From positions 1 to 20,106 of the IMG/VR virus record IMGVR_UViG_3300033153_004168: a stretch of 20,106 nt of DNA; one strand, 5' to 3'. Position numbers and translations under genes: made by a program. The notes beneath the pieces are model-generated. The model saw only the letters and a program-made list of their open reading frames with translations. It did not search any database and was not told the DNA's origin. The DNA comes from a virus. This document shows, in pieces, positions 1 through 18,202 of this stretch. Each line of letters starts with the position of its first letter. Positions within the stretch are counted from its first letter, which is position 1.

Positions 1-1
1 C

Positions 2-361
2 TTTGGAGAATTCGCCGAAGAAGCCCGAACCGCGCAAGAAATGGCGATTGCATCGCTTGAAAAATCACTTCAGGCGGCCAGCCAAAGACAAGAGGAGCAA
101 GAAGCCGAAGCCAAGAAAAAGGCCGAAGCTGAAGCCCGCGCCAAGGTCGAAGCCGAAGAAAGGGCGAAAGCGCAAGAAGAATTCAAACGCAAGGAAGACG
201 AAAACCACCGTATAAAGGTTCATCATCAAGCGGTTTGCGCCATCTCGGACGCGATTCAAAACGCCGTAACGCACGGACGCGACAACGGGCTTGAAATGGC
301 TGAAGACGTCCTTGCCGAAATCGAAGCGGGCAACGTTCCGAATGTTTCCATAAACTACTAA
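2..361 (+). CDS. coiled-coil phage protein, 5' partial
   Basis: The frame is open to the left edge, so the gene begins outside the window and the ATG at 41 is probably internal. About 120 codons are visible. The visible N-terminal half is a highly charged Glu/Ala/Lys/Arg/Gln-rich helix (roughly positions 40-215) of the kind often mislabelled TolA-like. The last 45 residues form a small domain ending in a pattern like 'NVPNVSINY'. Similar endings (an Ala/Ile-rich helix, then G-x-I/V-P-x-V-x-I-x-Y) occur, as I recall them, on phage coiled-coil proteins near recombination genes (Rad52/RecT/exonuclease regions). That comparison is from memory of the family and is not proof of function. It is the first of three plus-strand genes. 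Confidence 0.7.
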   Translation, partial: FGEFAEEARTAQEMAIASLEKSLQAASQRQEEQEAEAKKKAEAEARAKVEAEERAKAQEEFKRKEDENHRIKVHHQAVCAISDAIQNAVTHGRDNGLEMAEDVLAEIEAGNVPNVSINY

Positions 362-402
362 ACCCAACGGGGGCCGCGCATCCGGTAAACGCGGGTTTTA
401 TT

Positions 403-702
403 ATGAGATTTATACAAAACCAAGATTTTAACCCCGATTTAGTGAAGCTAAAAGGTCAATACGAATTCGGGCAAGGGGATTACGCGGACGAATTAAAGCC
501 GAAATATACACTTACCGGTCTTCATTACATGATTTACGGCTCGCCGATTTCAGTTTCAAAGGACGGTGAAGTTACATTTAATTCAAAGGCGATTTGTAAA
601 CTTATACAGTTCGTTTTTGACATATCCGAAGATCAATTTGAAGAACTGGAATATTACGACGCAATATTGCTTCAAAACTGGATACTAGAAAAGGCGTTTT
701 AA
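403..702 (+). CDS. small hypothetical protein
   Basis: This 99-residue protein is not recognised. It is mixed in composition, acidic, and rich in aromatic residues, with no signal peptide, membrane segment or cysteine motif. The N-terminal half looks beta-rich (several Tyr/Gly/Phe alternations). The C-terminal third looks helical and acidic ('ISEDQFEELEYYDAILL'). The start is the first ATG after the upstream gene, and the leader has no clear Shine-Dalgarno sequence. Its TAA stop shares one base with the ATG of the lysozyme-like gene (TAATG at 700-704), so the two are probably translationally coupled. Such coupling fits a small partner or regulator of the lysozyme, but nothing in the sequence shows this. 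Confidence 0.65.
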   Translation: MRFIQNQDFNPDLVKLKGQYEFGQGDYADELKPKYTLTGLHYMIYGSPISVSKDGEVTFNSKAICKLIQFVFDISEDQFEELEYYDAILLQNWILEKAF

Positions 703-1154
703 TGGACTTTTTAACCTTCCTAGTTCTCTTGATCGCTTGCGAAACCCCGAATTGCAAGTGCCAGAATGCCGAATTCTGCTATTGTATGGGCGATTTAAAC
801 AAAGAAACAGGCAAATATGAAGCGGCGGGCCAATTCCAAATTCATAAAAAGTATTTGGAAGACGCAAACAAGGAATTGGGGACCAATTACGTTTGGCCGC
901 GCGATGCGTTCCACCGGTTGACCTCATGCAAGATCGTATTGGGCTATATGAAGCGATATGCGACCCGTCAGCGCCTTGGAAGGTTGCCAACGGCTGAAGA
1001 TTGCGCCCGCATACACAACGGCGGTTTAAACGGCTTTAAGCGTGACTCAACCCTTGATTATCTTGCGGACTTCCGGAAGGCTGCCCAAGCAAATGGGCTT
1101 TCAAGCATTTTACAGCCGATTGAAAATATAGGTCCTTGGGAAGAAATCTTTTGA
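702..1154 (+). CDS. lysozyme-like (destabilase-type) endolysin candidate
   Basis: This 150-residue protein has the hallmarks of a bacterial/phage lysozyme-like family related to destabilase or transglycosylase folds: 'GQFQIHKKYLEDA' (residues 43-55), a middle helix 'GYMKRYATRQRLG' (81-93), and 'RIHNGG' (103-108) followed by a Gly-Phe-Lys and Thr-Leu-x-Tyr stretch. The role would be cutting peptidoglycan during lysis. Glu14, just after a hydrophobic N-terminus, is the best candidate for the catalytic acid. The N-terminus is also a possible lipobox (L10-I-A-C13), although it has no basic n-region. The region between residues 16 and 30 is cysteine-rich. The gene starts in a TAATG overlap with its upstream neighbour. 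Its last 119 bases lie antisense to the receiver gene, and both C-termini fall within recognisable domain sequence. The fold assignment rests on motif memory, and the exact enzyme class is uncertain. Confidence 0.65.
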   Translation: MDFLTFLVLLIACETPNCKCQNAEFCYCMGDLNKETGKYEAAGQFQIHKKYLEDANKELGTNYVWPRDAFHRLTSCKIVLGYMKRYATRQRLGRLPTAEDCARIHNGGLNGFKRDSTLDYLADFRKAAQANGLSSILQPIENIGPWEEIF

Positions 1155-1539
1155 CGGGGTAAACCTTCATTGCCGCCTTTTCAAGCGATTCGTAATGCGT
1201 CAATTCGCCGGTCTGAATGTATATTTCGCAACCGGCGACGACATTTGAAAGCATCATTGAAAAATCAAGGCCGGTCATTTTCGGCATATAGTAGTCTACA
1301 AACGCCAATGTTGGCGCCGGACGGTCCCCGCGACGGATTTCTTCAAGATAATCCATTGATTCCGAAAAGCTCTTAAGCTTCACTATGTCAATATTGGTAA
1401 ATTCGCGACGAATGCAGTATTCCAGAAGCTTCAAATCGGCTTCGTTGTCGTCCGCAATCACGATATGCGCTCGGCTGTCCTGCTTCTGAACCTTTGTCGA
1501 AGGGTTATAACCCAAGAATCTCGTAACATTCTTAATCAT
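1036..1539 (-). CDS. stand-alone CheY-like response regulator receiver
   Basis: This is a single-domain receiver of 167 residues. The ATG at 1539 is chosen because it overlaps the stop of the upstream gene (1532) and places the domain 25 residues in. The longer open frame (to 1686) would run through the neighbouring gene. An AAAGGA motif lies about 11 bases upstream. All phosphotransfer residues of the family are present: acidic pair D30-D31 in 'IVIADDNEAD', phospho-acceptor D82 in 'AFVDYYMPKMTG', T110 in 'YIQTGE', and K135 in 'RFLPKD'. Nothing suggests a DNA-binding or enzymatic output domain. The remaining sequence is a 25-residue lead and a Gly/Ser/Gln-rich tail of about 20 residues. The domain should accept phosphate from a histidine kinase, presumably the host's, since none is encoded here. 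It is the last gene of the minus-strand tail and lysis run, and its end overlaps the converging lysozyme-like gene. Confidence 0.88.
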   Translation of the reverse strand: MIKNVTRFLGYNPSTKVQKQDSRAHIVIADDNEADLKLLEYCIRREFTNIDIVKLKSFSESMDYLEEIRRGDRPAPTLAFVDYYMPKMTGLDFSMMLSNVVAGCEIYIQTGELTHYESLEKAAMKVYPVKRFLPKDLYFQSAVKCLKAHLLGQPSGSPQDNQGLSHA

Positions 1540-1804
1540 TTTTAGGCTTTTCCTTTGATAACGATTCAAGTTGTCGTTGCAATTGCTCGATAAAGTCTTT
1601 TCGAGACTTGTCGATTGTCTCGAACTGTGATCGCTCGGACTTAATTTGCTCTTTGAGGTAACGAATTGTTTTGTCTTTTTCATCAATTATTCGCTGAAAC
1701 CAACCTAAAACCCATCGACCCACAAAACCGGCGCCAGCAAGAACGCCCCCACCGGTTACAGTTGAAACCCAATATTCCTTTACGACCTTTTCGACCCACT
1801 CCAT
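1532..1804 (-). CDS. membrane protein with coiled coil, possible i-spanin-like
   Basis: This 90-residue protein has one hydrophobic Gly-rich segment (about residues 13-36, 'VTGGGVLAGAGFVGRWVLGW'). A charged helix with heptad character follows (about 38-82, many Lys/Glu/Gln), ending in a Lys-rich tail. An N-terminal membrane anchor followed by a coiled coil is the layout of Rz-type inner-membrane spanins. The protein is short for one, and a small holin-associated or accessory lysis protein is also possible. The lipoprotein gene immediately upstream would be the matching outer-membrane partner. There is no clear Shine-Dalgarno sequence before the ATG. The stop overlaps the receiver start by 8 bases. 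Confidence 0.68.
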   Translation of the reverse strand: MEWVEKVVKEYWVSTVTGGGVLAGAGFVGRWVLGWFQRIIDEKDKTIRYLKEQIKSERSQFETIDKSRKDFIEQLQRQLESLSKEKPKND

Positions 1805-1817
1805 TTCGATAAAACTT

Positions 1818-1823
1818 ATTATA
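1818..1823 (-). promoter_or_regulatory. possible -10 element (TATAAT)
   Basis: The 44-base gap between the lipoprotein and coiled-coil genes contains, on the minus strand, a perfect TATAAT. It lies 14 to 19 bases before the ATG at 1804. The sequence 15 to 17 bases further upstream is a poor -35 match (best TTGTTT at 15 bases). A transcript from here would have almost no leader and would carry the coiled-coil and receiver genes. The gap is AT-rich, so chance is a fair explanation. Confidence 0.25.
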
Positions 1824-1848
1824 CGAAAGTTTGATATTAAACAAGCTT

Positions 1849-2148
1849 TTACAATTCATCGCCGGACCTTTTTAGTTTGGCGCGAAGACGCTTAATTTCG
1901 TTTGCAAGCGCTTGCATGTCGTTCGGGTGAACGGCCAAATATCCGCCCAAATCCTTCTTTCCGACGGTATCCCCGACCGTAACTTGAATAGGGTCGTTGT
2001 CCGCAATCCGGACCGCCGACTTGGCGGCTTCCGGAAAGGGAGCTAAAGACGAATAAACAATTTCGGTCTTGTGTGTCGCGCAACCGCTACAGATTAGAAT
2101 ACTTATCAAGAGCGCGGTCTGTAGAAGTATGTATGCGGATTTGACCAT
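1849..2148 (-). CDS. small lipoprotein, possible o-spanin
   Basis: This 99-residue protein begins with a lysine (K3), then a hydrophobic stretch (about residues 5-21) ending in 'ICSGC'. This is a near-consensus lipobox (Cys at -3 in place of Leu) with C23 as the predicted lipidated residue. The mature part is about 77 residues. It is Ala/Pro/Asp-rich in the middle and ends in a basic helix ('LANEIKRLRAKLKRS'). It probably sits in the outer membrane facing the periplasm. Together with the adjacent membrane-anchored coiled-coil gene, this resembles a separated spanin pair that fuses the inner and outer membranes at lysis. The order here is lipoprotein first, whereas classical Rz/Rz1 pairs have the inner-membrane partner first or overlapping. 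No Shine-Dalgarno motif is evident. Confidence 0.68.
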   Translation of the reverse strand: MVKSAYILLQTALLISILICSGCATHKTEIVYSSLAPFPEAAKSAVRIADNDPIQVTVGDTVGKKDLGGYLAVHPNDMQALANEIKRLRAKLKRSGDEL

Positions 2149-2174
2149 TTATTGACTTGGTTTCGTAAGTTTTT

Positions 2175-2228
2175 CTTGGCGTAGTTATAGCAATTTCAAA
2201 TAATGCTTTAAACAGAAAAGACGCCAAG
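2175..2228. repeat. 8-bp inverted repeat in intergenic gap
   Basis: In the 93-base gap between the holin-like and lipoprotein genes, CTTGGCGT (2175-2182) faces ACGCCAAG (2221-2228), a perfect 8-base inverted repeat. A smaller AGCA/TGCT pair lies inside it (2188-2191 and 2203-2206). The arms are not followed by a T-run on either strand, so it is not a standard Rho-independent terminator. It could be an RNA structure or a protein-binding site, or it could be chance. Confidence 0.4.
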
Positions 2229-2241
2229 GACGCGAAAAAGC

Positions 2242-2679
2242 TCATTTTTGCTTTTTAGCTGAAATAATATCTTCGATTTTTCCAGTGACCCAAGCTTGGC
2301 CCTTCTTGATTAAGTGCTTCTTCAGGGAAGAAGACTTTAAAGCTTCCTTGGTGTTCTCGAATGCCTTGTTACGCAACTGGCGGGCTTCGTCCTTGGTCAA
2401 TTTGCCGTCGGCTGCCTTGGCCTTCAGGTCTTTGACTGTAGAATGATACAACGCCGTAATCTGCGTTGCCAGTTCGTCAACAACCGCTTCGTCCATGCCC
2501 TTGGCTTTAGCCTTGGAAATAGCCATTTTGCCAAGCCAAGTAAATACGAACATAAGAACCATTGCGACAATTTGAACGCCTTGGGATAAGTAATCGTTTT
2601 GAATTAATACGTCGCTTTCAGAAGCGGCGAGAATTGGCGCCATAAGCGCGAACCATGCGATTGTAATTGAAGTTTTCAT
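2242..2679 (-). CDS. membrane protein, holin candidate
   Basis: This 145-residue protein has two hydrophobic segments: residues 5-18 at the very N-terminus, which could be a cleaved signal ending 'ILAAS', and residues 34-49 ('VQIVAMVLMFVFTWLG'). A long basic, Lys/Ala-rich helical domain reaches to the C-terminus. One N-terminal membrane region followed by a charged helical tail resembles the phage holin LLH superfamily, and the position next to lipoprotein and coiled-coil genes supports a lysis role. The identification is by layout, not by a diagnostic motif. A GGAG lies only 2 bases before the ATG, closer than usual. A weak TTGACT/TAATCT promoter-like pair upstream would put the transcript start at the ATG itself. 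Confidence 0.65.
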   Translation of the reverse strand: MKTSITIAWFALMAPILAASESDVLIQNDYLSQGVQIVAMVLMFVFTWLGKMAISKAKAKGMDEAVVDELATQITALYHSTVKDLKAKAADGKLTKDEARQLRNKAFENTKEALKSSSLKKHLIKKGQAWVTGKIEDIISAKKQK

Positions 2680-2733
2680 AACTCCAGATTACCAAACGCC
2701 GGTTTTTAGTCAATACCGTAAAGCTTTTTACAA

Positions 2734-3537
2734 TTACCGATTATCTGTAATTGCATCAAGTTCCGCGTGAGTAGTGGCCGCAAGGATAGAATCGCGAATT
2801 ACGGCGCCACTATCAAGAAAGCCCTGTTTTGCCCCGACAAGAGCGAAATAGTAACTGTCGACTTCTGCTTTGGGCAAATCGTAGCTTGAACCGTCTTTGG
2901 CTGAAATGCGAAGCGGGAACATTCCGTTTGCGTCGTATGCTTCTTTGCCGAAGAAAATATTCGTCGCATTGATTTGCGCGTTCTCAGAGCAAGAAAAGAT
3001 TTTTCCGGCAAAGCTAATGTCGGCGCAACAAATCAAGTCGCCTGTCTTCGCGTCAACCGATTCAATCATTTCAACTTTTCGTTCTTCCACTGAAAGCGGC
3101 TCATGCGCGGCAATAATGGCTTCCAAGGCCGATTCATTCGCTTGATTGAAAGAATCACCCCAAACTTGCAACAAGTCCGCAAGAACTTCAACGCTTTTAA
3201 ACCCGTCAACAAGCCCGCTTTGGTCGATTTCGTCTTGCAACTTCATTGCATTAACGGAGCCGGATGGAATTTTTGAAGAAATCGAACATTCGTAAACGGA
3301 AGAAATTCCGGAAATTGAAGTATTATGATTCGCAATTACCGCTTCAAGCGAAGGTTCATTTGCTGGATCAAGCGAAACGCCGTGAATCTTTAGCGTATCC
3401 CCGTCAATTTCAATCGAATCAATGCCTTCAACTAGGTTGAATTGATTAATCAAGTCGCCCAATTTGTCGGGATCAACAACACCCGAAACCACTGTTTCGG
3501 AAATGGAACATTCATAAACAACTGTTACTTCTGACAT
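2734..3537 (-). CDS. tail-fibre-region protein with tandem repeat and DUF4376-like domain
   Basis: This 267-residue protein has two parts. Residues 7-80 and 81-154 are a tandem duplication with a period of exactly 74. Both units open with 'VYECSIS' and close with a helix of the form 'E-x-x-LEA-V/I-I-A-x-H'. Residues of about 157-263 resemble the DUF4376 domain found on phage tail-fibre and fibre-assembly proteins: 'ISFAGKIFSC', then 'AQINATNIFFGKEAY', then a C-terminal helix 'ILAATTHAELDAI'. It is probably a structural or assembly component of the fibre region, but the exact role is unknown. An AAGG motif about 8 bases before the ATG supports the start. It follows the cysteine-cluster gene after 3 bases. 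Confidence 0.7.
   Translation of the reverse strand: MSEVTVVYECSISETVVSGVVDPDKLGDLINQFNLVEGIDSIEIDGDTLKIHGVSLDPANEPSLEAVIANHNTSISGISSVYECSISSKIPSGSVNAMKLQDEIDQSGLVDGFKSVEVLADLLQVWGDSFNQANESALEAIIAAHEPLSVEERKVEMIESVDAKTGDLICCADISFAGKIFSCSENAQINATNIFFGKEAYDANGMFPLRISAKDGSSYDLPKAEVDSYYFALVGAKQGFLDSGAVIRDSILAATTHAELDAITDNR
3076..3519 (-). repeat. tandem protein-coding repeat, 2 x 74 codons
   Basis: Codons 7-80 (3298-3519) and 81-154 (3076-3297) of the preceding gene encode two diverged copies of one unit, each starting with VYECSIS. The copies are clear at the protein level and much less so at the DNA level, which points to an old duplication. Confidence 0.8.
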
Positions 3538-3540
3538 TTT

Positions 3541-3894
3541 TTAACCTTTTTTTCGTGCATCAATACCCCGAATCGAAACCCCGTGCCGCAATTGCATATA
3601 TTCGATTTGCTTCATAATAGGGGAATTCATCGAAATATCATCTTTTAATCTGTAAGCTAGATATTCACCTTTTAAACTTTTTGCAATAATAACCCCGCTT
3701 TTATCAGGTCGAAGCTCTTTTTTCCAATCTGAATTCAAATAAGCGCATTCAAAGGTCTGGCAAACTTCCGGCCTTGATTCATAAATTGAACAACCTTTTG
3801 AAGTGCAATGCGCGCAAAGTTTATGTTTCGGCTTATTGATTTCTTCAATCTCGAATACAGCACAACATTCAGTGCATTCGCCGCATTGATTCAT
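3541..3894 (-). CDS. YkgJ-type CxxCxxCC cysteine-cluster protein
   Basis: This 117-residue protein carries the signature of the YkgJ/UPF0153 zinc- or iron-chelating family. C4, C7, C10 and C11 form CxxCxxCC at the N-terminus. C27, C30 and C35 follow, with the last in 'GCSIYESRP'. C45 and C50 complete the usual nine-cysteine set ('RPEVCQTFEC'). The family binds metal, probably an Fe-S or Zn cluster, and its biochemical role is poorly known. There is no signal peptide or membrane segment, so it is expected to be cytoplasmic. Its ATG overlaps the upstream fibre stop by 4 bases (ATGA), which indicates coupled translation with a tail-fibre gene. This is an odd neighbour for this family, and a role in modifying or maturing a fibre is conceivable but unproven. 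Confidence 0.85.
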   Translation of the reverse strand: MNQCGECTECCAVFEIEEINKPKHKLCAHCTSKGCSIYESRPEVCQTFECAYLNSDWKKELRPDKSGVIIAKSLKGEYLAYRLKDDISMNSPIMKQIEYMQLRHGVSIRGIDARKKG

Positions 3895-4559
3895 TGAATT
3901 ATTCGTTCCTTAATTATCAACGTTCGATCCAAGTCCCAAGCGGTAGTTGTTCCGCCAGAAGGCCCCCAAAAGCGAACGTCGATTGTCATATTTTGAAACG
4001 GCCCAACAACACCACTCCATTGAGTCGATAAATTGGAAACGCCAACTCTTTGAGCTTGAACAATTGTTTCAGGGTCAAGAACTCCGTTGATAAATATGCC
4101 GCAAGCCGCATGTTTCTTTTTTGCGTCATTCTCAAACGTTCCAGAAAAGAAAACGTCAACGGTTGATTGCTTTATGAAGCTAGAAAACCAAGTGTCGGTC
4201 ATTCCGTCCAGAACCGGAGCCGATAAAGCATCGCCCGCGCCCGTAAAAGGATTCAAGACCGTTCCAACCCTAAATCTTTCATGGTTTTGATACATGAAAT
4301 TCAAAACGTCTTGAGCTTCGACAAATGTTAAGCTTTTAAGAATTCCTCCGGCGGGTCTGCCAAGTATTGATTTATCTCCAATAATTAAATTTTCAGGATC
4401 GCCAAAAGCAGGATTGAATCGACCTTTAACGCTGTTTCCTTGCATGTCGGCAAGCTCAACGTTTGTTATTGAATTAGGCGGAATAACGGGTGTCCCGCCG
4501 CCGCCAGCGCCCGAAGGTCTTTTTCTTACAGGGTATCGCCCGCCACCTCTTGAAGTCAT
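3891..4559 (-). CDS. tail fibre protein
   Basis: This 222-residue protein starts with a basic, glycine-rich, probably flexible segment (residues 1-25, including 'GAGGGG'). Residues 30-90 show a typical phage fibre pattern: 'ITNVELADMQGNSVKGRF', then 'NLIIGDKSILGRPAGG', then 'SLTFVEAQDVLNF'. Segments of this kind occur in fibres as shaft or pre-tip regions. The remaining 130 residues are beta-rich and may form a tip domain ('RFWGPSGGTTTAWDLDRTLI' near the end). It should attach to the baseplate or to another fibre and contact the host surface. It sits 3 bases after a stand-alone adapter-like gene and overlaps the cysteine-cluster gene downstream. The start is the first ATG after the upstream stop. 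Confidence 0.75.
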   Translation of the reverse strand: MTSRGGGRYPVRKRPSGAGGGGTPVIPPNSITNVELADMQGNSVKGRFNPAFGDPENLIIGDKSILGRPAGGILKSLTFVEAQDVLNFMYQNHERFRVGTVLNPFTGAGDALSAPVLDGMTDTWFSSFIKQSTVDVFFSGTFENDAKKKHAACGIFINGVLDPETIVQAQRVGVSNLSTQWSGVVGPFQNMTIDVRFWGPSGGTTTAWDLDRTLIIKERIIQ

Positions 4560-4562
4560 AAC

Positions 4563-4904
4563 TTAGGTCTTTCTTTGTTCGCTGTCGAATTGTTCGGTCC
4601 AGCATTCAATGGCCGAAGTGAAAGCAATTAACTTAATCGCGTCAAATTGTTCAAGCGTAACGTCGATTGCGTCGCCAACGTAAATTGGCTGCCCGTCCGT
4701 TGCGCTTGGCACGGCGTCAGGGTCAAGAGTGTAAGCCCCGATTGGGTTGCTTTCTGCAAGATCGCCCTTCGTGTAAATGGTTACGACGTTTGCCCTTTCA
4801 GCCAAGGAAACCGTCAAGTCTGCAAGACTCTTGCCGCCCGCATCTGTTGGAATGGATATACCCTTGGAAGCTCCGGCGATTGGCTTTGTATAAAAATCAC
4901 TCAT
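4563..4904 (-). CDS. small adapter-like protein, third copy of the KPIAG...EQF domain
   Basis: This 113-residue protein belongs with the 7627-7962 protein and the N-terminus of the gp48-like protein. 'KPIAG' is at residues 7-11, 'GQPIYVGD' at 71-78 (matching GNPIL...D in the sister protein), and 'EQF' at 104-106. The middle is more diverged, so this is the most distant of the three copies. It has no signal peptide or membrane segment. The fusion of the same domain to a baseplate-end protein suggests a structural role in fixing fibres to the baseplate. This is inferred from context. An AAGG motif 7 bases before the ATG supports the start. The tail fibre gene follows after 3 bases. Confidence 0.68.
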   Translation of the reverse strand: MSDFYTKPIAGASKGISIPTDAGGKSLADLTVSLAERANVVTIYTKGDLAESNPIGAYTLDPDAVPSATDGQPIYVGDAIDVTLEQFDAIKLIAFTSAIECWTEQFDSEQRKT

Positions 4905-4943
4905 AATTCAACCTTCTAGCGTTTTAATCCGGAAAATACAAGA

Positions 4944-5510
4944 TTAATCGCCGTAAAACGTCCCCGCTTCGGCGGCGTCTTCAATGATTTTTAGGTTCGC
5001 GGACATATTAGTTCGAAGGTCTTTTGCCGCTTGGCTTTCGTCTTCTTCGTTAGGATAAAGCTTTAAGGCGTATTCCTTGTTTTTTACTCGCGTGTAAATC
5101 TGGCAAGGCATGTCTGAACAATAGTTTACAGCGTGATATTTAAGTTCAAACGGTGCTTCAAGCGTAAGGCCAACCCCCGAACGGCTGTTTGCATAAAAAC
5201 AGCCATCAAGAGCAAGTTTGATATACGAAGCCAAATCGGATTCAAAGGCCGCTTGCGCGTCGATTACGGCTTGGGTTCGGTCTGCTTTATCAGGGTAAAG
5301 CGTAAACCTTCCTTGGCTTACAATTTTAACCCATTTGTCGCGATTCAACTTAATGAACCACTTGCCGCCGCGAACGTCAATATCGTCAATTTTGTTCTCA
5401 ACGGTAACGTCCGAATCAATCTCGACTTCCGAAGTGAGCGCGTCTTGAGCGCAAAGAAACGGCGCCGAAAGCGTTAATAGTAAAACGAATAAGTTTAGTT
5501 TGTTTTTCAT
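4944..5510 (-). CDS. secreted protein with internal duplication
   Basis: This 188-residue protein begins with a clear Sec signal peptide (M-K-N-K, then a Leu-rich core, then 'APFLCA', predicted cut near residues 21-22). The mature protein has an internal duplication with a period of 80. 'LYP' at 71-73 and 151-153 and 'G-x-FY' at 103-106 and 183-186 line up without gaps, with about 12 of 38 positions identical between them. Three cysteines (C104, C131, C136) could form a disulfide in the periplasm. The family is not recognised. The signal peptide begins with the same MKNK and a similar hydrophobic core as the upstream fibre-like protein, so the pair is probably exported together. There is no Shine-Dalgarno motif before the ATG, which lies 9 bases after the upstream stop. 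Confidence 0.72.
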   Translation of the reverse strand: MKNKLNLFVLLLTLSAPFLCAQDALTSEVEIDSDVTVENKIDDIDVRGGKWFIKLNRDKWVKIVSQGRFTLYPDKADRTQAVIDAQAAFESDLASYIKLALDGCFYANSRSGVGLTLEAPFELKYHAVNYCSDMPCQIYTRVKNKEYALKLYPNEEDESQAAKDLRTNMSANLKIIEDAAEAGTFYGD

Positions 5511-5519
5511 AGTGATATA

Positions 5520-7205
5520 TTATTGAAGATCGGTTGTAATACCTTTGAAGTTCAAGCCGGTTCCGTCGTAATGAAACCAAATCATATCTTTGGCGGCTGG
5601 CGTTGTTGTGAGTGTTGGCGGCGTTCCCCCTGAGAATTTAAAAATCGCGTCCCAAGTTGGTATCCTGCTTCCGATTCCGTCCTGAGTAATAACTAAAACG
5701 TATTCCATGCTTGGCGTCAAATTGGTTGGCGCGTTGAAGTTATGGTTGCCGTCCAAAGTAATTTTTCCAGTGCCGCCTTCTTCGGTATCCCAATCAATAT
5801 TTCCGCCGGACTCCGAAAGGTTTTCAATTGAAGCGCTGTAAGCGTGAGCAAGTTCACCGCCCGCATTTGTCGACATTGGAATTACGCTTGAACCGGTGTT
5901 AATTGAAGCAAGGTGTCGAAATACGGGGCTTCCTTCAAAGTTTGGGAGGTCTGGAAGCGCAACTTGGCGACCACCCGAACCCGAAGTGTTGTAATTTACA
6001 AACATATAATCGCCGTCACCGTCATAAAATCGAATACCTATGCCGTTGTCTGTCCTGACATGAAACGACTCAACGGACAAAGGCGCGTCAATAAGTTCCC
6101 CGCAAGTCGCGGAAGTCATTAAAAGGCGGCTTACATCTGTTACGCATTCGTTTACGACTGCAATCGTTCCGGTTGTATCCGGCAAAAAGTGATTCTGTTG
6201 ATCTGTTAAATAATCGCTTTTAATTCGAGCTTGCCAAGAATTATCGTTTTTGGAAAATACAAGTTCCGGACGGTCGCAAGCAACTCCCAAAAGCTGAAGG
6301 GCGAAGTCTGACCCGCTAGGCGCAACCATGTTGTATTGGCCTATTGTTTGCACATATGAAACATGATTACCAAGCCTATATGAATATTGATTTGAGTTTC
6401 TAAGATCAATAAAGTTTTGAGCCGTTGCGCTGCTTTGAATGTATCCAAGTTCCAATCCATTATTGCAAATACTTCCTAAAGTTCCAGCGCCATTCTGACT
6501 AAACATTGAATCAACAAGTTCGCCCTCGGTTGAAGTCGCAAGTGTTAAAGTGTCAGAAGATAGACAATTTGCAACGGCCATTGTTCCGGAAGCTTCAGGC
6601 AATACGAATGTTTGAGGGCCGACCGTTGAAGGGTCTGGCGTTTCAAAAGTGTATGAATGCCCATCGCGCCAAAAAACAAGGTCAACGTCTGAATCATTGC
6701 ACCCAAGCCATAAAGCATCGAGACAATTTCTCAGCCTGAAAACGTTGCTTGTAAGTTCTACGCCGTTGCCGCCGCTTATATAAATACCAATCTGACCTGT
6801 TTCAAATCTTAGCCTATTCGTTCCAAGGTTACACCCAAAAATCGTATTCGGGCTTGCATCATCAAGATAAATATCGCCCGCCGCTTCCCTGATAATAGAA
6901 TCGCCAAGATTTGAACCACTTCCACACCATTTCGGCAACTTTCCAACCGTTCCGCTTCCTGTTACAGCCCCGCAACCAATATCGGAAAGAAACGCAACTG
7001 TTCCGTCTGCATCCTTAAAAGTAATCGTCCGGTCTGCTGTTGGGTCCGTGAATTCAAGGGTCGTTTCGAATTCGTCATTCGTCGCGCCTTCTGCTTCAAT
7101 TGTCCCGTTCTGCTTAAGCTTTAACTTATCGGTAACGGTTGTCCCACCAAAGGCGACGGAACAAGCAATTAGTAATGCGGTAAAAAGTGTAATTTTGTTT
7201 TTCAT
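5520..7205 (-). CDS. fibre-like protein with Sec signal peptide
   Basis: The product is 561 residues from the ATG at 7205, which forms a TAATG overlap with the upstream stop. A longer reading (from 7250) would run into the upstream gene. The first 20 residues ('MKNKITLFTALLIACSVAFG') are a standard Sec signal peptide. The mature part has fibre-type modules repeated with variation. Examples are 'ADRTITFKDADGTVAFLSD' (about 57-75), 'FVLPEASGTMAVAN' (200-213) and 'FLPDTTGTIAVVN' (340-352). The last two are followed by a similar 'GEL-V/I-D' unit about 16 residues on. Such 'LPDxxGTxAV' units are common in phage tail fibres and in some bacterial surface proteins. It could be a virion fibre, or a surface protein placed on the infected cell. 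The signal peptide favours the second or an unusual assembly route. Confidence 0.75.
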   Translation of the reverse strand: MKNKITLFTALLIACSVAFGGTTVTDKLKLKQNGTIEAEGATNDEFETTLEFTDPTADRTITFKDADGTVAFLSDIGCGAVTGSGTVGKLPKWCGSGSNLGDSIIREAAGDIYLDDASPNTIFGCNLGTNRLRFETGQIGIYISGGNGVELTSNVFRLRNCLDALWLGCNDSDVDLVFWRDGHSYTFETPDPSTVGPQTFVLPEASGTMAVANCLSSDTLTLATSTEGELVDSMFSQNGAGTLGSICNNGLELGYIQSSATAQNFIDLRNSNQYSYRLGNHVSYVQTIGQYNMVAPSGSDFALQLLGVACDRPELVFSKNDNSWQARIKSDYLTDQQNHFLPDTTGTIAVVNECVTDVSRLLMTSATCGELIDAPLSVESFHVRTDNGIGIRFYDGDGDYMFVNYNTSGSGGRQVALPDLPNFEGSPVFRHLASINTGSSVIPMSTNAGGELAHAYSASIENLSESGGNIDWDTEEGGTGKITLDGNHNFNAPTNLTPSMEYVLVITQDGIGSRIPTWDAIFKFSGGTPPTLTTTPAAKDMIWFHYDGTGLNFKGITTDLQ

Positions 7206-7627
7206 TATGCCAATGATTGCGATTCTTTTAATTGAATTGAATACTTCCAATCAACAATCCCCAAATCGCCGGAAGAATCAACCGCTTCAATTTGGTAATT
7301 CGTGTCGCCAACTGCAACAATCTGAAATTCAATGTCGCCGTCTTGCTTAACAAGCCAAGATTCGGTTCCAACGTCGACCGAATACGCGCTTGGAGACTCG
7401 GCGCCGCGTCTAGTGACCATAAATTTGACGGTATAGCCAAGGCGAATCGAGTTGTCCGCGCTCTTTCCGATAATCTCGACTTCGAAAATCTGCGAAAGAT
7501 TGTCTTCCGGCAGCGTTCCGGAATAAATAAGCTTCGGGTCCGAATTATTAAAATCGGTTTGAGCATTCCCACGAACGGGGATTTTTAAACCCAAAGGGAT
7601 ACAAACTTTTCTGACGATCAATTTCAT
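7205..7627 (-). CDS. small beta-rich fibre-region protein
   Basis: This 140-residue protein is not recognised. It is rich in alternating hydrophobic and polar residues, which suggests a beta-sandwich, for example 'IRLGYTVKFMVTRR' and 'DIEFQIVAVGDTNYQIEAV'. There is no signal peptide, membrane segment or cysteine cluster. The gene is wedged between an adapter-like gene and the secreted fibre-like gene, with one-base TAATG overlaps on both sides, so all three should be translated in step. A role as a fibre subunit, capping protein or chaperone is possible from the position only. The first residues are basic ('MKLIVRKV'). Confidence 0.68.
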   Translation of the reverse strand: MKLIVRKVCIPLGLKIPVRGNAQTDFNNSDPKLIYSGTLPEDNLSQIFEVEIIGKSADNSIRLGYTVKFMVTRRGAESPSAYSVDVGTESWLVKQDGDIEFQIVAVGDTNYQIEAVDSSGDLGIVDWKYSIQLKESQSLA

Positions 7628-7962
7628 TACGAAGCGGGTTCGAATTGCTCTAAAAATGCTTTGACGTCGCCTTGAGTGTTTACAAACAGGGCGTTGAATT
7701 GGTCTTTGGTCAAAATAATGACGTCGACGCGCAAAATCGGGTTGCCCTTGGTTGCATCAAGGCCAAAAGAACCGTCGCGACTGAAGCGGGCAATAATATC
7801 ATTAAGCTTATCCGGCTCAATGTCGAACGATAGGCGAATTTCTGTTGCGTTCGGGTCGATAGAAAACGAACCATGAGTTTCAAGGGTCGCGGGCGCGTTT
7901 CCAATGGTTACTTCAAGGGAAGTTCCCGCAATGGGTTTTGTGTTGTCGGTGCAATCGCTCAT
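7627..7962 (-). CDS. small adapter-like protein, second copy of the KPIAG...EQF domain
   Basis: This 111-residue protein aligns almost end to end with residues 1-103 of the gp48-like protein. Shared features, in order, are a Pro-Ile near the start, 'TLE' before a glycine, 'ISF'/'LSF', 'IIARF' (56-60; 'VIARF' there), 'GNPIL' (73-77; 'GNVIL' there), 'ALFV' (91-94; identical there), and a final 'QF' (106-107). It also begins with 'KPIAG' like the 4563-4904 protein. The stand-alone gene next to a fused copy suggests a baseplate-to-fibre attachment or decoration domain. No biochemical function is known to me. It lies 2 bases after the Mu-like fibre stop. Confidence 0.75.
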   Translation of the reverse strand: MSDCTDNTKPIAGTSLEVTIGNAPATLETHGSFSIDPNATEIRLSFDIEPDKLNDIIARFSRDGSFGLDATKGNPILRVDVIILTKDQFNALFVNTQGDVKAFLEQFEPAS

Positions 7963-7964
7963 TT

Positions 7965-9383
7965 TTATTTATAGCCCAATACTTCAATACTCCAAGACGG
8001 ATTTACGGGCGTTCCTGCGCCAATATTAACGTCGTAAGTAATGCTTTTTGTTGTTCTTGTGTCTATCTGTAAAACGGTTGAATTTGCTTTTGCCGAATCG
8101 GCGCCGTTGTCGTATCTAAGTGTCAACGGTGTTCCGTAATCATCTGAACCGCATTCAATATCAATTGTCAAATTGTCAATTGAAGCCGCGTCGTCGGTTT
8201 GAGCCTTCAAGACAAGCTGAACTTGCTTTGCCTCATTATATGGCGCTGGCAATACGATCGTTCCGCTATCATTGCCGGTTCCGCTTGCCAATACTGCTGC
8301 GCCGGAAAACTTGAAAGCACTATTAGCAAGGGCGCTTACTGCTGCCGTTGCGTCCAGCGTAACAGAATTTGCCGAAGGCATTGAAAGCGTTGAACTAACT
8401 GAATAATCTGCAATTGTTACCGTTATATTGGCCTTATTTCCGCTAATGGCCGACATTGTCAGTTCCGGAAGCGTAGCAACAAGACCGGTTCCACTTGCGG
8501 AAGCACTTGAACCCGTTCCGGCGCCGCCAACGGTTCCGATTCCGTTAATCGTCCAATACCAAGTTCCGGCGATCTTTGCAAAGACGTATTCAACGTCGAT
8601 TGGATATGAATTTGCGCTTCCTACAACCGCATTTACTGAACCTTCGATTCGGTCGACGTTCAAAAGTTGGGAAGTTAATCCAATGTTCGCGGTTTTGCTT
8701 GTGGTGCTAGATTGCGACTCTGATTGATTGTTTAATTCAAGCGTTTCAAGGCTTGCAGCGTCGCGGGCTGGAATGCTCCAACCCCATTTTTCAATCGTCC
8801 AAGAGCGCAAAACGCCGCTTCCCGCCGTTCTTTCAACCTTGTATTCCACGGGGTTAAGCCCTGAAAGGTCGATAAATGCCGTTGATCGGTCGGACCCATA
8901 GGTTGAACCGGTTGTTCCGGCGCCATCAACAAGGCAAAATCTATGTTCGACGCCCTGCGTATCTTTAACAACAAGTTGGTATGTCGTGCCGTCATTTTCG
9001 GCTGAAAGCTCACAAGAAAGATAAATTCCGTTTGCCCCAACTGGCGGCGTTCCAATCGCTAAAGGCGTGAATCCAACCGTTGCGCCACCGGAAGCAAGCG
9101 TTGCCTTATCGAAAACAATCATTCCGCCGCCCCCACCGCCGCCGCCTGAAGCTGCCGCAATGGTTTGAATCGCAAGTAAGAGTTGGTTTCGCTTTGTGCC
9201 GTCAAGCGAAATGCCCGCGCCTTCAATCGCGTTGCAAATTTCTTCTTGGTGGTCTGCGTAAAACTCTGGATACAGGTCCGAAGCGCAACTTGGTTTATTG
9301 TCGGGGTTGCCGGAATGCGCTGTTGCTGGAACGCTAGGAACGCCCACGCCATTGACAGAAAGTGCTGGATCGTATCTTTTCAT
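7965..9383 (-). CDS. tail fibre protein, Mu gpS-like N-terminus
   Basis: This 472-residue protein has a Mu-like fibre N-terminus. 'YDPALSVNGVGVPSVP' (4-19) is followed by a short helix region 'YADHQEEICNAIEGAGISLD' (42-61) and 'QLLLAIQTI' (67-75). This resembles the 'WLNxVQEEIxNxIEAAG' segment that precedes the shaft in many Mu/P2-type fibres. A run of eight glycines (80-87) is a flexible linker. The rest (about 88-472) is beta-rich, Ser/Thr/Ala/Gly-heavy and low in charge, as in fibre shafts and tips. It should attach to the gp48-like protein encoded just upstream (TAATG overlap at 9383) and recognise the host. The C-terminal receptor domain is not recognised. Confidence 0.83.
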   Translation of the reverse strand: MKRYDPALSVNGVGVPSVPATAHSGNPDNKPSCASDLYPEFYADHQEEICNAIEGAGISLDGTKRNQLLLAIQTIAAASGGGGGGGGMIVFDKATLASGGATVGFTPLAIGTPPVGANGIYLSCELSAENDGTTYQLVVKDTQGVEHRFCLVDGAGTTGSTYGSDRSTAFIDLSGLNPVEYKVERTAGSGVLRSWTIEKWGWSIPARDAASLETLELNNQSESQSSTTSKTANIGLTSQLLNVDRIEGSVNAVVGSANSYPIDVEYVFAKIAGTWYWTINGIGTVGGAGTGSSASASGTGLVATLPELTMSAISGNKANITVTIADYSVSSTLSMPSANSVTLDATAAVSALANSAFKFSGAAVLASGTGNDSGTIVLPAPYNEAKQVQLVLKAQTDDAASIDNLTIDIECGSDDYGTPLTLRYDNGADSAKANSTVLQIDTRTTKSITYDVNIGAGTPVNPSWSIEVLGYK

Positions 9384-10300
9384 TATTCAAATTCGCAATC
9401 GCCGTTAATTTGGTAAACTATGTCGGATTGTGCGGGGCCGATTATCTTCATAATACAGCGAAAAGCAAGGATCGAATTCAAGTCGGGGCCATTCAACATT
9501 GAAGCGCAAGCCAAATCGCAAGCAAGCCTTGGCGCCAAATCCGGATTTATAAAGTTGATTGTCAGGCTGAACGTCGAAACGTCGTCAGTAATTGAGATTT
9601 CAAGGCCCAAGGCTTCGGCAACGTCAATGTAACCTTCTGTGCTATTGGCGCCGATTCCGTGAAGCTTGGCGACGGCTGCCGCAACTTTATCTTGGGTTGT
9701 AATTCCAAATCCTTCCAAGCAATTATTCAGAGTATCCGAAAACGTTTCATTTGCCCAATTGTTCGCAAGCTCGGTTGAAGTCGAAGCGAACATTTCCAAT
9801 ATCATATCCAAAACGCGGCAATGAAAGTCGCTAAATACCTTACCGAATGAATTGAAAAGCTTGTAAAGGTTGGATTCCGGAATGTATTTTGCGGCAAAAG
9901 TGCCATAACTGCCGAAATACTCCGGTTCAGAAGGCAGAACCCGCGCAATCAAGTTCCGGTATTCGTTGGTAAAGTCGCATTCTTCTTCGCCGGTAAATTG
10001 GGTAACATGCGCTTGAATTGAGCCTTCAGCCGCCACAAATAGGGCATCAAGGCCGAATTTGTTCATTTCGAATACGTCATTGGGCAAGATTACGTTGCCA
10101 ACGGTCGGGGAAATGGTCGCGCTTGGGTCCGCCGCAAATCGGGCAATAACCCTTAGTTCGGGCCGTTCATAGAATGAAATTTTGACGGTCTGAACGCCCT
10201 TAACGAAGGAAACGCCCATATCCTCAAGAGTCCTTGGGGTTTGGTCGATTGTGATCCGTTGGCCGGTCTTTGGAATTGGAATATCACAAATAAGGGACAT
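9383..10300 (-). CDS. gp48-like (DUF2313) baseplate protein with extra N-terminal domain
   Basis: This 305-residue protein has two domains. Residues of about 109-300 match the Mu gp48/YmfQ (DUF2313) type: 'EYRNLIARVLP', a long helix ending 'RVLDMILEMF', a 'WANETFSDTLNNCLEGFG' segment, and an 'AEALGLEISI' strand. This family closes the baseplate and links it to fibres. Residues 1-103 are not part of the usual family. They are homologous to the stand-alone 7627-7962 protein (VIARF 51-55, GNVIL 68-72, ALFV 86-89, QF 101-102). The fusion is the strongest hint that this domain works at the baseplate-fibre junction. The gene starts 1 base after the baseplate J stop and ends in a TAATG overlap with the fibre. 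Confidence 0.83.
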   Translation of the reverse strand: MSLICDIPIPKTGQRITIDQTPRTLEDMGVSFVKGVQTVKISFYERPELRVIARFAADPSATISPTVGNVILPNDVFEMNKFGLDALFVAAEGSIQAHVTQFTGEEECDFTNEYRNLIARVLPSEPEYFGSYGTFAAKYIPESNLYKLFNSFGKVFSDFHCRVLDMILEMFASTSTELANNWANETFSDTLNNCLEGFGITTQDKVAAAVAKLHGIGANSTEGYIDVAEALGLEISITDDVSTFSLTINFINPDLAPRLACDLACASMLNGPDLNSILAFRCIMKIIGPAQSDIVYQINGDCEFE

Positions 10301-16318: not shown

Positions 16319-16519
16319 TTAAAAAGATTCCTTTTGTTTGTCGATTTCCCTTCTTACGTCTTCAACGGTTTTACGGTGAAGTTCCCAAAAGTATAATAAA
16401 TCAGAAACTTCCCATCCGTCAATAACAGAAGGGCAAATGCCCGCGCCTGAGAAGTCGCCTTGAGCCATAAGCCCCCGATAAACATCATCGAAGGCCGCGC
16501 CCAACTCTAAAGTTGGGGC
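16319..16519 (-). CDS. frameshift extension of the tail assembly chaperone
   Basis: These 66 codons are translated only if ribosomes slip -1 at the heptamer 16519-16525, joining them to the first 113 residues of the upstream chaperone to give a product of about 179 residues. The frame stays open back to about 16600 but lacks a plausible start there. The stretch 'FFAPTLELGAAFDDVYRG' crosses the junction. The extension ends immediately before the tape measure ATG. Paired short and long forms of this kind are known in lambda (gpG/gpGT), Mu and P2, where the long form binds the tape measure during tail assembly. That role is inferred here from position and mechanism. Confidence 0.82.
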   Translation of the reverse strand, partial: APTLELGAAFDDVYRGLMAQGDFSGAGICPSVIDGWEVSDLLYFWELHRKTVEDVRREIDKQKESF

Positions 16520-16525
16520 AAAAAA
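16500..16525 (-). promoter_or_regulatory. programmed -1 frameshift site: slippery heptamer and hairpin
   Basis: On the minus strand, T-TTT-TTG (16525-16519) is in phase with the chaperone reading GAT-TTT-TTG. Slipping one base back keeps pairing at the two sites (TTT, and TTT for TTG). A 7-bp hairpin begins 1 base later: CCCAACT (16517-16511), loop TTAG, AGTTGGG (16506-16500). The zero-frame stop lies in its loop and last stem base. The heptamer is 4 codons before that stop. The spacer is shorter than the usual 5 to 9 bases, so the hairpin may act only partly, or only the inner pairs may form. Confidence 0.83.
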
Positions 16526-16857
16526 TCCAAGATCACCGCCTTCGCTTGCTCGTAGTCTTCTAAGTCGAGCTTGTTTGCATCGTCTTTTCCAAGACCGCAA
16601 AGGCGTTCAATCCACTTGCAAATTGTATCGTCGCAAATATCAACCAACTGTTCGCCCTGCTTCAAGCGTATGCTGTAAGCTGAACCGATTTGGCGAATAT
16701 CCTTAACCGCTACTTTGCGGAAATCTAAAAAGTTGATCTCTTCGCCGCCGGTTGTAATAGGTTCAGCAAGACGAATTGAAACTTCCGTTCCCTTTCTGGC
16801 GTCGGGGTTTTCTTCCTTCTTATAAGAAAGAATTGCTTGATTCTCTTCGTCGCTCAT
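16507..16857 (-). CDS. tail assembly chaperone, Mu gp41-like (short form)
   Basis: This 116-residue acidic protein is of the Phage_TAC_7/Mu gp41 type. 'VSIRLAEPITTGGEEINFLDFRKVAV' shows the family's opening strands. A helical part with 'EQLVDICDDTICKWIERLCGLG' leads into the C-terminal helix. In Mu-like phages the protein guides the tape measure and tube during tail assembly and is not in the final virion. The last codons contain the slippery heptamer that lets some ribosomes extend into the next frame. It starts 2 bases after the tube gene. Confidence 0.85.
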   Translation of the reverse strand: MSDEENQAILSYKKEENPDARKGTEVSIRLAEPITTGGEEINFLDFRKVAVKDIRQIGSAYSIRLKQGEQLVDICDDTICKWIERLCGLGKDDANKLDLEDYEQAKAVILDFLPQL

Positions 16858-17245: not shown

Positions 17246-18202
17246 TTAGTTAAGACGGAATTCGATCAAGCCAAGGATTTGGCGAAGCTGATTAACCAAA
17301 TCAGGCGGAAGCTTTACAGAAACCGCGTTTACGTTTGGCGCAATCTCCGCTTCGATTAGCTGCTGGAATTCGTCGACGTTCTCGAAGATTCCCAAGGCTT
17401 CCAGTTCGCGAGCAAGGGCGATACATTCGCCTTTTACGCTGCTAGGTGTTGCAACATTGGCTTGGCCTGAGATTCGCGACCCATCCTTTACAAGCTTGAA
17501 AGGTGTGGTAAAGAAAACTTGCGTCAAACGCTGGCGGTATGCCTTGCGAGCGAATGAAAGCGTAAGCGGTGTTTGCGAATCCAAGTAAGAAACGTCCGGT
17601 TGGCCCAAGTTGTTGGTTTGATAATTTGTAATGCCGCGTTCGATGAAAATGCGACCGTCTTGGGTTCTGCGATGCGTTGCAATACCACCTTTAAGGAAGT
17701 TTTCGCGTTCTGCATCGGTAAATTGATTTGTGCGGGTTCCGCCATCAATTCCAAGGATTTGTTGCGAGTGCCAAGGTAATACAGGGTCGTTTTGTGCGAT
17801 TACTGTTGCCGCGCCACAATAAGCGCCCGCCCAAGCATGAGAAGGCGAAAGGCTATCTTCGGCGCCGGACATTGTAGTTGCGAACGCTGAATTGCGGTTG
17901 TCGCCGTATGCGAGCAAGTTTGCAGCCGATTCAACAAGAGCGTTGAACGCATGGCCTTCGTATTGATTATTGCCGTCTTGGCGACCTGCAAGCCATGTAT
18001 CAAGCGCGGTCATGTTTGTAGCGTCTGTATATGGCTGAAGGATATAATCAAAGATTTCGTCGGGAACTGCATCCAAAGCGGTTTGTAATACAGGGTTTCC
18101 GGTTCCTGCTACGGTGTCCGCAACTGCGAATGTTACGCCGTCCGGTAAAGTGTCGCTTCCGCCGTCCTTTACGAGCCTTGAACAACCAAGTCTTCGGTCC
18201 AA
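17246..18202 (-). CDS. tail sheath protein, C-terminal part after frame change
   Basis: This part is 318 codons and would start at a TTG if translated alone, which is unlikely. It carries the middle and C-terminal parts of a Mu gpL-type sheath. 'LPDGVTFAVADTVAGTGNP' corresponds to the family's 'LPAGVT...GxGNP' segment. Later come 'IDGGTRTNQFTDAERENFL', 'DVSYLDSQTPLTLSFARKAY', and the ending 'LPPDLVNQLRQILGLIEFRL', which is typical. With the N-terminal ORF (182 codons) the total is about 490 to 500 residues, the normal length for this family. The join needs a -1 shift between about 18172 and 18200. Either the assembled base is wrong, or the gene is broken, or it is recoded. Confidence 0.9.
   Translation of the reverse strand: MDRRLGCSRLVKDGGSDTLPDGVTFAVADTVAGTGNPVLQTALDAVPDEIFDYILQPYTDATNMTALDTWLAGRQDGNNQYEGHAFNALVESAANLLAYGDNRNSAFATTMSGAEDSLSPSHAWAGAYCGAATVIAQNDPVLPWHSQQILGIDGGTRTNQFTDAERENFLKGGIATHRRTQDGRIFIERGITNYQTNNLGQPDVSYLDSQTPLTLSFARKAYRQRLTQVFFTTPFKLVKDGSRISGQANVATPSSVKGECIALARELEALGIFENVDEFQQLIEAEIAPNVNAVSVKLPPDLVNQLRQILGLIEFRLN

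Follow-up and report, generated by a model that had tools for sequence, protein, structure and literature searches.

A stand-alone receiver gene closes the minus-strand late operon of the window (the whole stretch of viral DNA analysed, 20,106 nt, IMG/VR record IMGVR_UViG_3300033153_004168) and lies directly 3′ of a gene for a small membrane protein with a coiled coil. The same pairing recurs in Alteromonas phages of several morphotypes, where the receiver sits within or beside lysis genes wherever the locus was examined. We tentatively propose that the window's divergent receiver works together with the upstream membrane coiled-coil protein as a late lysis-region module. The features concerned are as follows.

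1036..1539, minus strand: stand-alone receiver of 167 aa, with a 23-aa N-terminal extension, a domain at about residues 24-150 and a low-confidence C-terminal tail
1532..1804, minus strand: small membrane protein of 90 aa, candidate receiver partner, with a hydrophobic segment at about residues 16-34 and then a coiled coil (hydropathy, heptad and charge scan)
1849..2148, minus strand: lipoprotein-like ORF of 99 aa, weak Rz-like spanin candidate, with a signal and a lipobox-like CSGC (phrog_9385, E 0.006, weak)
2242..2679, minus strand: weak holin candidate of 145 aa with two hydrophobic stretches (phrog_36209 holin, E 0.006, weak)
702..1154, plus strand: invertebrate-type (destabilase family) lysozyme gene, convergent with the receiver (PF05497, E 8.7e-8, 32.8 bits against a 26.2 cutoff)

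The receiver ORF starts with an ATG at 1539 and its stop codon ends at 1036. An earlier note on this DNA had placed a receiver at exactly these positions, without naming the minus strand, and had described it as ending the tail and lysis operon; both statements agree with the ORF map. The start of the receiver overlaps the end of the 90-aa ORF (1804..1532) by 8 nt. At its other end, positions 1036-1154, the gene runs antisense to the convergent lysozyme gene, 3′ end against 3′ end, over 119 nt; K135 and helix alpha-5, which fall within codons 129-167, thus lie opposite the codons for the lysozyme C-terminus. No RNA structure was detected at this convergent overlap (z 0.84).

Several lines of evidence confirm that the protein has a receiver domain, as the earlier note had held. 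The Pfam profile PF00072 (Response_reg) matches residues 26-134 with E 9.8e-7 and 29.4 bits, below the gathering score of 30.2; with the neighbouring frame included, the score becomes 30.2 and the match is called over the cutoff. A phmmer search against the PDB matched solved receivers, the best being 2qvg (E 6e-6). AlphaFold2 with an 8-row alignment returned the alternating alpha/beta receiver fold at a mean pLDDT of 79, with block means of 88-97 over residues 21-110 and lower values beyond; the single-sequence prediction was poor (pLDDT 50). Foldseek searches with the model yielded 303 PDB matches at E<=1e-3, and among the matches listed nearly all were receivers or receiver-containing proteins, including DesR, Rcp1 and Spo0F. 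Judged by its profile score, the window protein is a divergent receiver, because only a handful of the 136 receiver matches in two bacterial genomes, which mostly score 50-116 bits, are as low. No output domain of the C-terminal winged-helix type (PhoB/OmpR) is present in the 167 residues, and PF00072 is the only Pfam match.

The active site had been described as complete, which is too strong, although most of its residues are secure. D30, D31, D82 (in DYYMPKMTG) and T110, which is followed by G111, lie in register with the receiver active site. The lysine is ambiguous: K135 is the conserved residue by profile alignment (rFLpKdl against YlvKpl) and by alignment with 2qvg, whereas one MAFFT alignment selects K130, which the model, with beta-5 at 125-128, also favours. 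K135 is therefore the likely, not certain, active-site lysine, with K130 as the alternative. The proline that usually follows the conserved lysine is absent from both (K135-D136, K130-R131). The further claim that an intact site implies selection for phosphotransfer was overstated, since all copies of the gene that were found are identical and selection on it cannot be measured.

In the window, the receiver adjoins lysis genes on the strength of the convergent destabilase-type lysozyme, which is probably the phage endolysin; the holin and spanin candidates are weak. Relatives of this lysozyme occur at 40-60% identity in other viral contigs. Those at about 40% include otherwise unrelated viral contigs (L004-L009), and matches in Cellulophaga phages are weak. 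The 90-aa membrane protein matches phrog_1009, a family of unknown function (E 3e-4). Also among the tail and lysis genes, at 3541-3894, is a cysteine-rich protein with CxxCxxCC-type spacing (phrog_9155, E 1e-9; the Pfam CxxCxxCC match is weak).

A generic receiver query identified stand-alone receivers in Alteromonas phages H4/4, R8W, R9Y1-3, XX1924, PB15, A5, V22 and V19, which comprise podo-, sipho-, schito- and myovirus types. Of these, R8W, R9Y1 and R9Y3 are known only from hit-level homology of their loci. The common order is a protein of 93-125 aa with one transmembrane (TM) segment and a coiled coil, the receiver directly 3′ of it, and lysis genes next or nearby. In XX1924, PB15, H4/4, R9Y2, V19, A5, V22, the contig L034 and the window, the two genes overlap by 4-11 nt or are separated by 1-8 nt, and the 8-nt overlap in the window thus reproduces the Alteromonas arrangement. 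This arrangement is also seen in related IMG/VR viral contigs (L030-L034 and L036-L040).

The lysis genes themselves differ from phage to phage. The XX1924 receiver adjoins a GTA_holin_3TM holin and a DUF5675 gene, that of PB15 an M15 peptidase, that of the R9Y phages (R9Y2) a GH108 lysozyme, and those of A5 and V22 a phrog_4297 Rz-like spanin. In H4/4 a holin lies two genes upstream of the receiver, and in V19 the receiver and its partner converge on a membrane protein and DUF5675. A 123-aa stand-alone receiver in a different, 48-kb phage (L041:4992-5363) has no recognised lysis genes around it. The earlier note had offered the link to lysis as an inference; it now gains comparative support from receivers lying in Alteromonas lysis cassettes behind a membrane coiled-coil protein.

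In a crude composition test for the class of the upstream partner, 24 of 474 genes (about 5%) passed for TM plus coiled coil; the figure serves as a rough background only, since the test missed the window and V22 partners. In a tblastn search of low sensitivity with two of the partners, only phages that also carry the receiver were matched. The XX1924 partner matches phrog_937, labelled 'hemolysin'. By the positive-inside rule, the coiled coil of the Alteromonas partners would be cytoplasmic, on the same side as the receiver. Inner-membrane spanins hold their coiled coil in the periplasm, and the predicted topology therefore argues against these partners being such spanins. For the window partner the charge scan (two K/R before and four after the TM segment) gives a weaker signal for a cytoplasmic coiled coil than in the Alteromonas partners.

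Apart from V19, all lineages of the set retain the aspartate pair, the acceptor aspartate, the S/T and the lysine, at pairwise identities down to about 25%. In V19 (L026:3998-4450), the acceptor Asp and the Lys have been lost while the gene order is kept, leaving a pseudo-receiver in the module; phosphorylation is therefore not needed in every member. The earlier note had counted such a loss among the outcomes that would tell against its reading, and it does occur, in this one lineage; the other outcome, a decaying prophage, is made unlikely by the sister contig described below, so that the two checks give a mixed result.

Homologues of the window receiver were sought, as the earlier note had advised, and no close one was found in the phages or chromosomes searched, including by tblastn at E 0.01 against phages. 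Plasmids gave four weak tblastn matches, and bacterial genomes gave two partial pattern matches, a hybrid kinase and a GGDEF protein. When viral contigs were scanned with queries for the lysozyme, baseplate J, the sheath and the receiver, the only matches were copies from the window's own population, phages unrelated to it that share the lysozyme, or host-type regulators. Several phage-labelled records were set aside as comparisons: the Komp_PAO1_1 receiver is NarL-type, lies on the strand opposite the annotated gene and looks like host DNA; that of Bhz63 is a PhoP with a kinase-like neighbour; L017 and L018 carry Rcp-type regulators with kinases; and numerous fecal, Listeria, Staphylococcus and Acinetobacter records look like bacterial DNA, as judged from the hit list.

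By BLAST, the window receiver matches the Alteromonas set no better than it matches unrelated bacterial receivers. A profile comparison favoured bacterial over phage receivers (45.7 versus 10.7 bits) but is biased, several of the bacterial sequences having been fetched for their likeness to the window protein; in the structure search the closest phage match was V22 gp30. Phylogenetic reconstruction united the Alteromonas receivers in one clade with moderate support (SH-aLRT 81), and they therefore represent one spreading family rather than many independent cases; their common position may reflect inheritance and not repeated recruitment. The branch of the window receiver, among those of bacterial receivers, is very long and its placement unsure; a tree holding it with the phage clade was not rejected by an AU test (p 0.74) and had a slightly better likelihood. 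Comparison of the window partner with the Alteromonas partners by hhalign gave no convincing sign of homology (probability 21%, over the TM segment only). The window is thus a second case of the Alteromonas arrangement, either by descent or by convergence.

The wider phage context comes from a sister contig, IMGVR_UViG_3300033144_001707 (L012, 34 kb), which is identical to the window over bases 1-9539 and differs elsewhere by 17 bases and one 10-base gap. One end of this contig carries terminase, portal, protease and capsid genes, of which terminase and portal match annotated phage genes; the other carries the lysozyme (by Pfam) and DUF1351-like, exonuclease-like and MazG-like genes. These last three, like the protease and capsid genes, are named from their translations. 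The tail proteins of the window resemble those of Mu-like contractile-tailed phages. At 18169-18202 the gene for the tail sheath is broken into two reading frames, because the window lacks ten bases at about 18180 that are present in L012; this is either an assembly error or a real mutant. Immediately 5′ of the tape-measure gene, at 16319-16857, lie two ORFs that overlap in different frames and resemble the pair of tail assembly chaperones usually made there by ribosomal frameshifting. Searches of the window proteins with PADLOC returned nothing, nor did Rfam.

No histidine kinase HATPase_c domain was found in the 34-kb sister contig, which spans the region, in line with the earlier note, which had seen neither a kinase nor an output domain in the window. 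The phage records searched likewise gave no HATPase_c match above the cutoff; the one match below it, of 18 bits, lies within an 854-aa frame of A5. Each of the eight phage records counted encodes a single receiver.

These observations are compatible with a mechanism in which, late in infection, the receiver would be phosphorylated by a host histidine kinase or by a small phosphodonor, an outside source being assumed because the phages searched yielded no kinase. Its phosphorylation state could then alter how it binds the coiled coil that the membrane partner exposes to the cytoplasm, and the partner might in turn restrain or release the holin, so that lysis time would be tied to the signalling state of the host. 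Every mechanistic step beyond co-expression is our inference. A phosphorylation-dependent switch fits the residues kept across the set, with the site degenerate in at least one lineage. In the window itself, the weakness of the holin and spanin candidates and the position of the endolysin gene on the opposite strand count against a module. The comparison suggests, and does not prove, that some phages tie cell bursting to phosphate signalling. The more specific proposal is rather doubtful: that host kinases phosphorylate a phage receiver, which then gates a membrane-anchored coiled-coil regulator of lysis, the pair having spread between morphotypes and perhaps having been recruited independently by the contractile-tailed phage of the window. 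Holin accumulation and membrane state are generally regarded as the main determinants of when a phage lyses its host; a receiver that belongs to the lysis cassette, if real, would add a phosphorylation input to that decision.

The main rival is a decoy or mimic of host signalling, made late, that would drain phosphate from host response regulators (for motility, envelope stress or phosphate) or compete with them, the late position serving only to set the timing. In favour of such a decoy, the receiver stands alone, its active site is nearly complete and the searches turned up no phage kinase; phage proteins acting on host two-component systems exist (PIT4, PMC10714779), and the V22 and A5 papers name their copies CheY-like class II AMGs (PMC7289586, PMC10579305). 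Nevertheless, a host-takeover gene would be expected early and not in a lysis cassette, the constant membrane coiled-coil neighbour across morphotypes is left unexplained, and V19 keeps the gene and its position after losing the acceptor and the Lys; we regard this explanation as unlikely. The V19 pair, retained with a degenerate site, speaks instead for an adaptor that works independently of phosphorylation, its receiver fold binding the membrane partner or the lysozyme and its residues persisting for structural reasons. The unusual divergence of the window domain (29-30 bits, against mostly 50-116 in the two bacterial genomes) and the Asp in place of Pro after the Lys point the same way, but the persistence of DD, D, S/T and K in all other lineages, down to about 25% pairwise identity, makes such an adaptor improbable.

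Cargo genes often sit at the ends of operons, and the receiver, at the end of the late operon, might be a passenger captured from a host and unconnected with lysis. Its likeness to bacterial receivers is no smaller than that to phage receivers, and its last 119 nt overlap the lysozyme gene that faces it. The recurrence of the same gene pair in other phages and the overlap of its reading frame with that of the gene upstream oppose this origin, which we consider as improbable as the adaptor; that the gene is identical in a second contig of the same population also does so, although this says little. A decaying prophage beside a host gene, the outcome that the earlier note had named as fatal to its reading, is highly improbable: nothing was found in its favour, phage-like genes flank the receiver on both sides in the 34-kb contig, and no tyrosine integrase domain was found there. 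The late lysis-region module formed by the receiver and its membrane partner is the explanation we prefer, at the tentative level given at the outset.

Among known systems, V22 gp30 and A5 gp11 are, like the window gene, late-region stand-alone receivers 3′ of a small TM and coiled-coil protein and beside lysis genes; they differ in sharing only about 13-15% identity with it, in lacking the 23-aa N-terminal extension and in being followed by an Rz-like spanin. Their describers assigned them to a 'host recognition module' and not to lysis. The Foturvirus proteins H4/4 gp44 and R8W g48, annotated as PhoB in the R8W paper (PMC8228385), likewise follow directly on a one-TM coiled-coil protein, there after a class II holin, at 18% identity to the window protein. 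Annotation as a DNA-binding PhoB regulator is not supported for H4/4 gp44 (L021:3992-4453, 153 aa), its only Pfam match being PF00072 at residues 4-115, a receiver domain alone.

Bacteriophytochrome response regulators of the Rcp1/RcpA type and CheY share the single-domain receiver form with the window protein (matches 2qvg, 6xvu and 1k68). They are normally linked to a cognate histidine kinase, whereas the window gene lies in a phage late operon with no kinase found. The divergent cREC receivers of jumbo phages are likewise phage receiver folds outside histidine-kinase operons; they are described as linked to NAD/ADP-ribose-processing enzymes (PMC7824862), none of which was recognised beside the window receiver. 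Our search of open-access full text found no paper linking phage receivers to lysis cassettes, holins or spanins. The papers on R8W, V22 and A5 name their receiver genes PhoB or CheY-like AMGs, and what appears new, within that literature, is the association with lysis cassettes.
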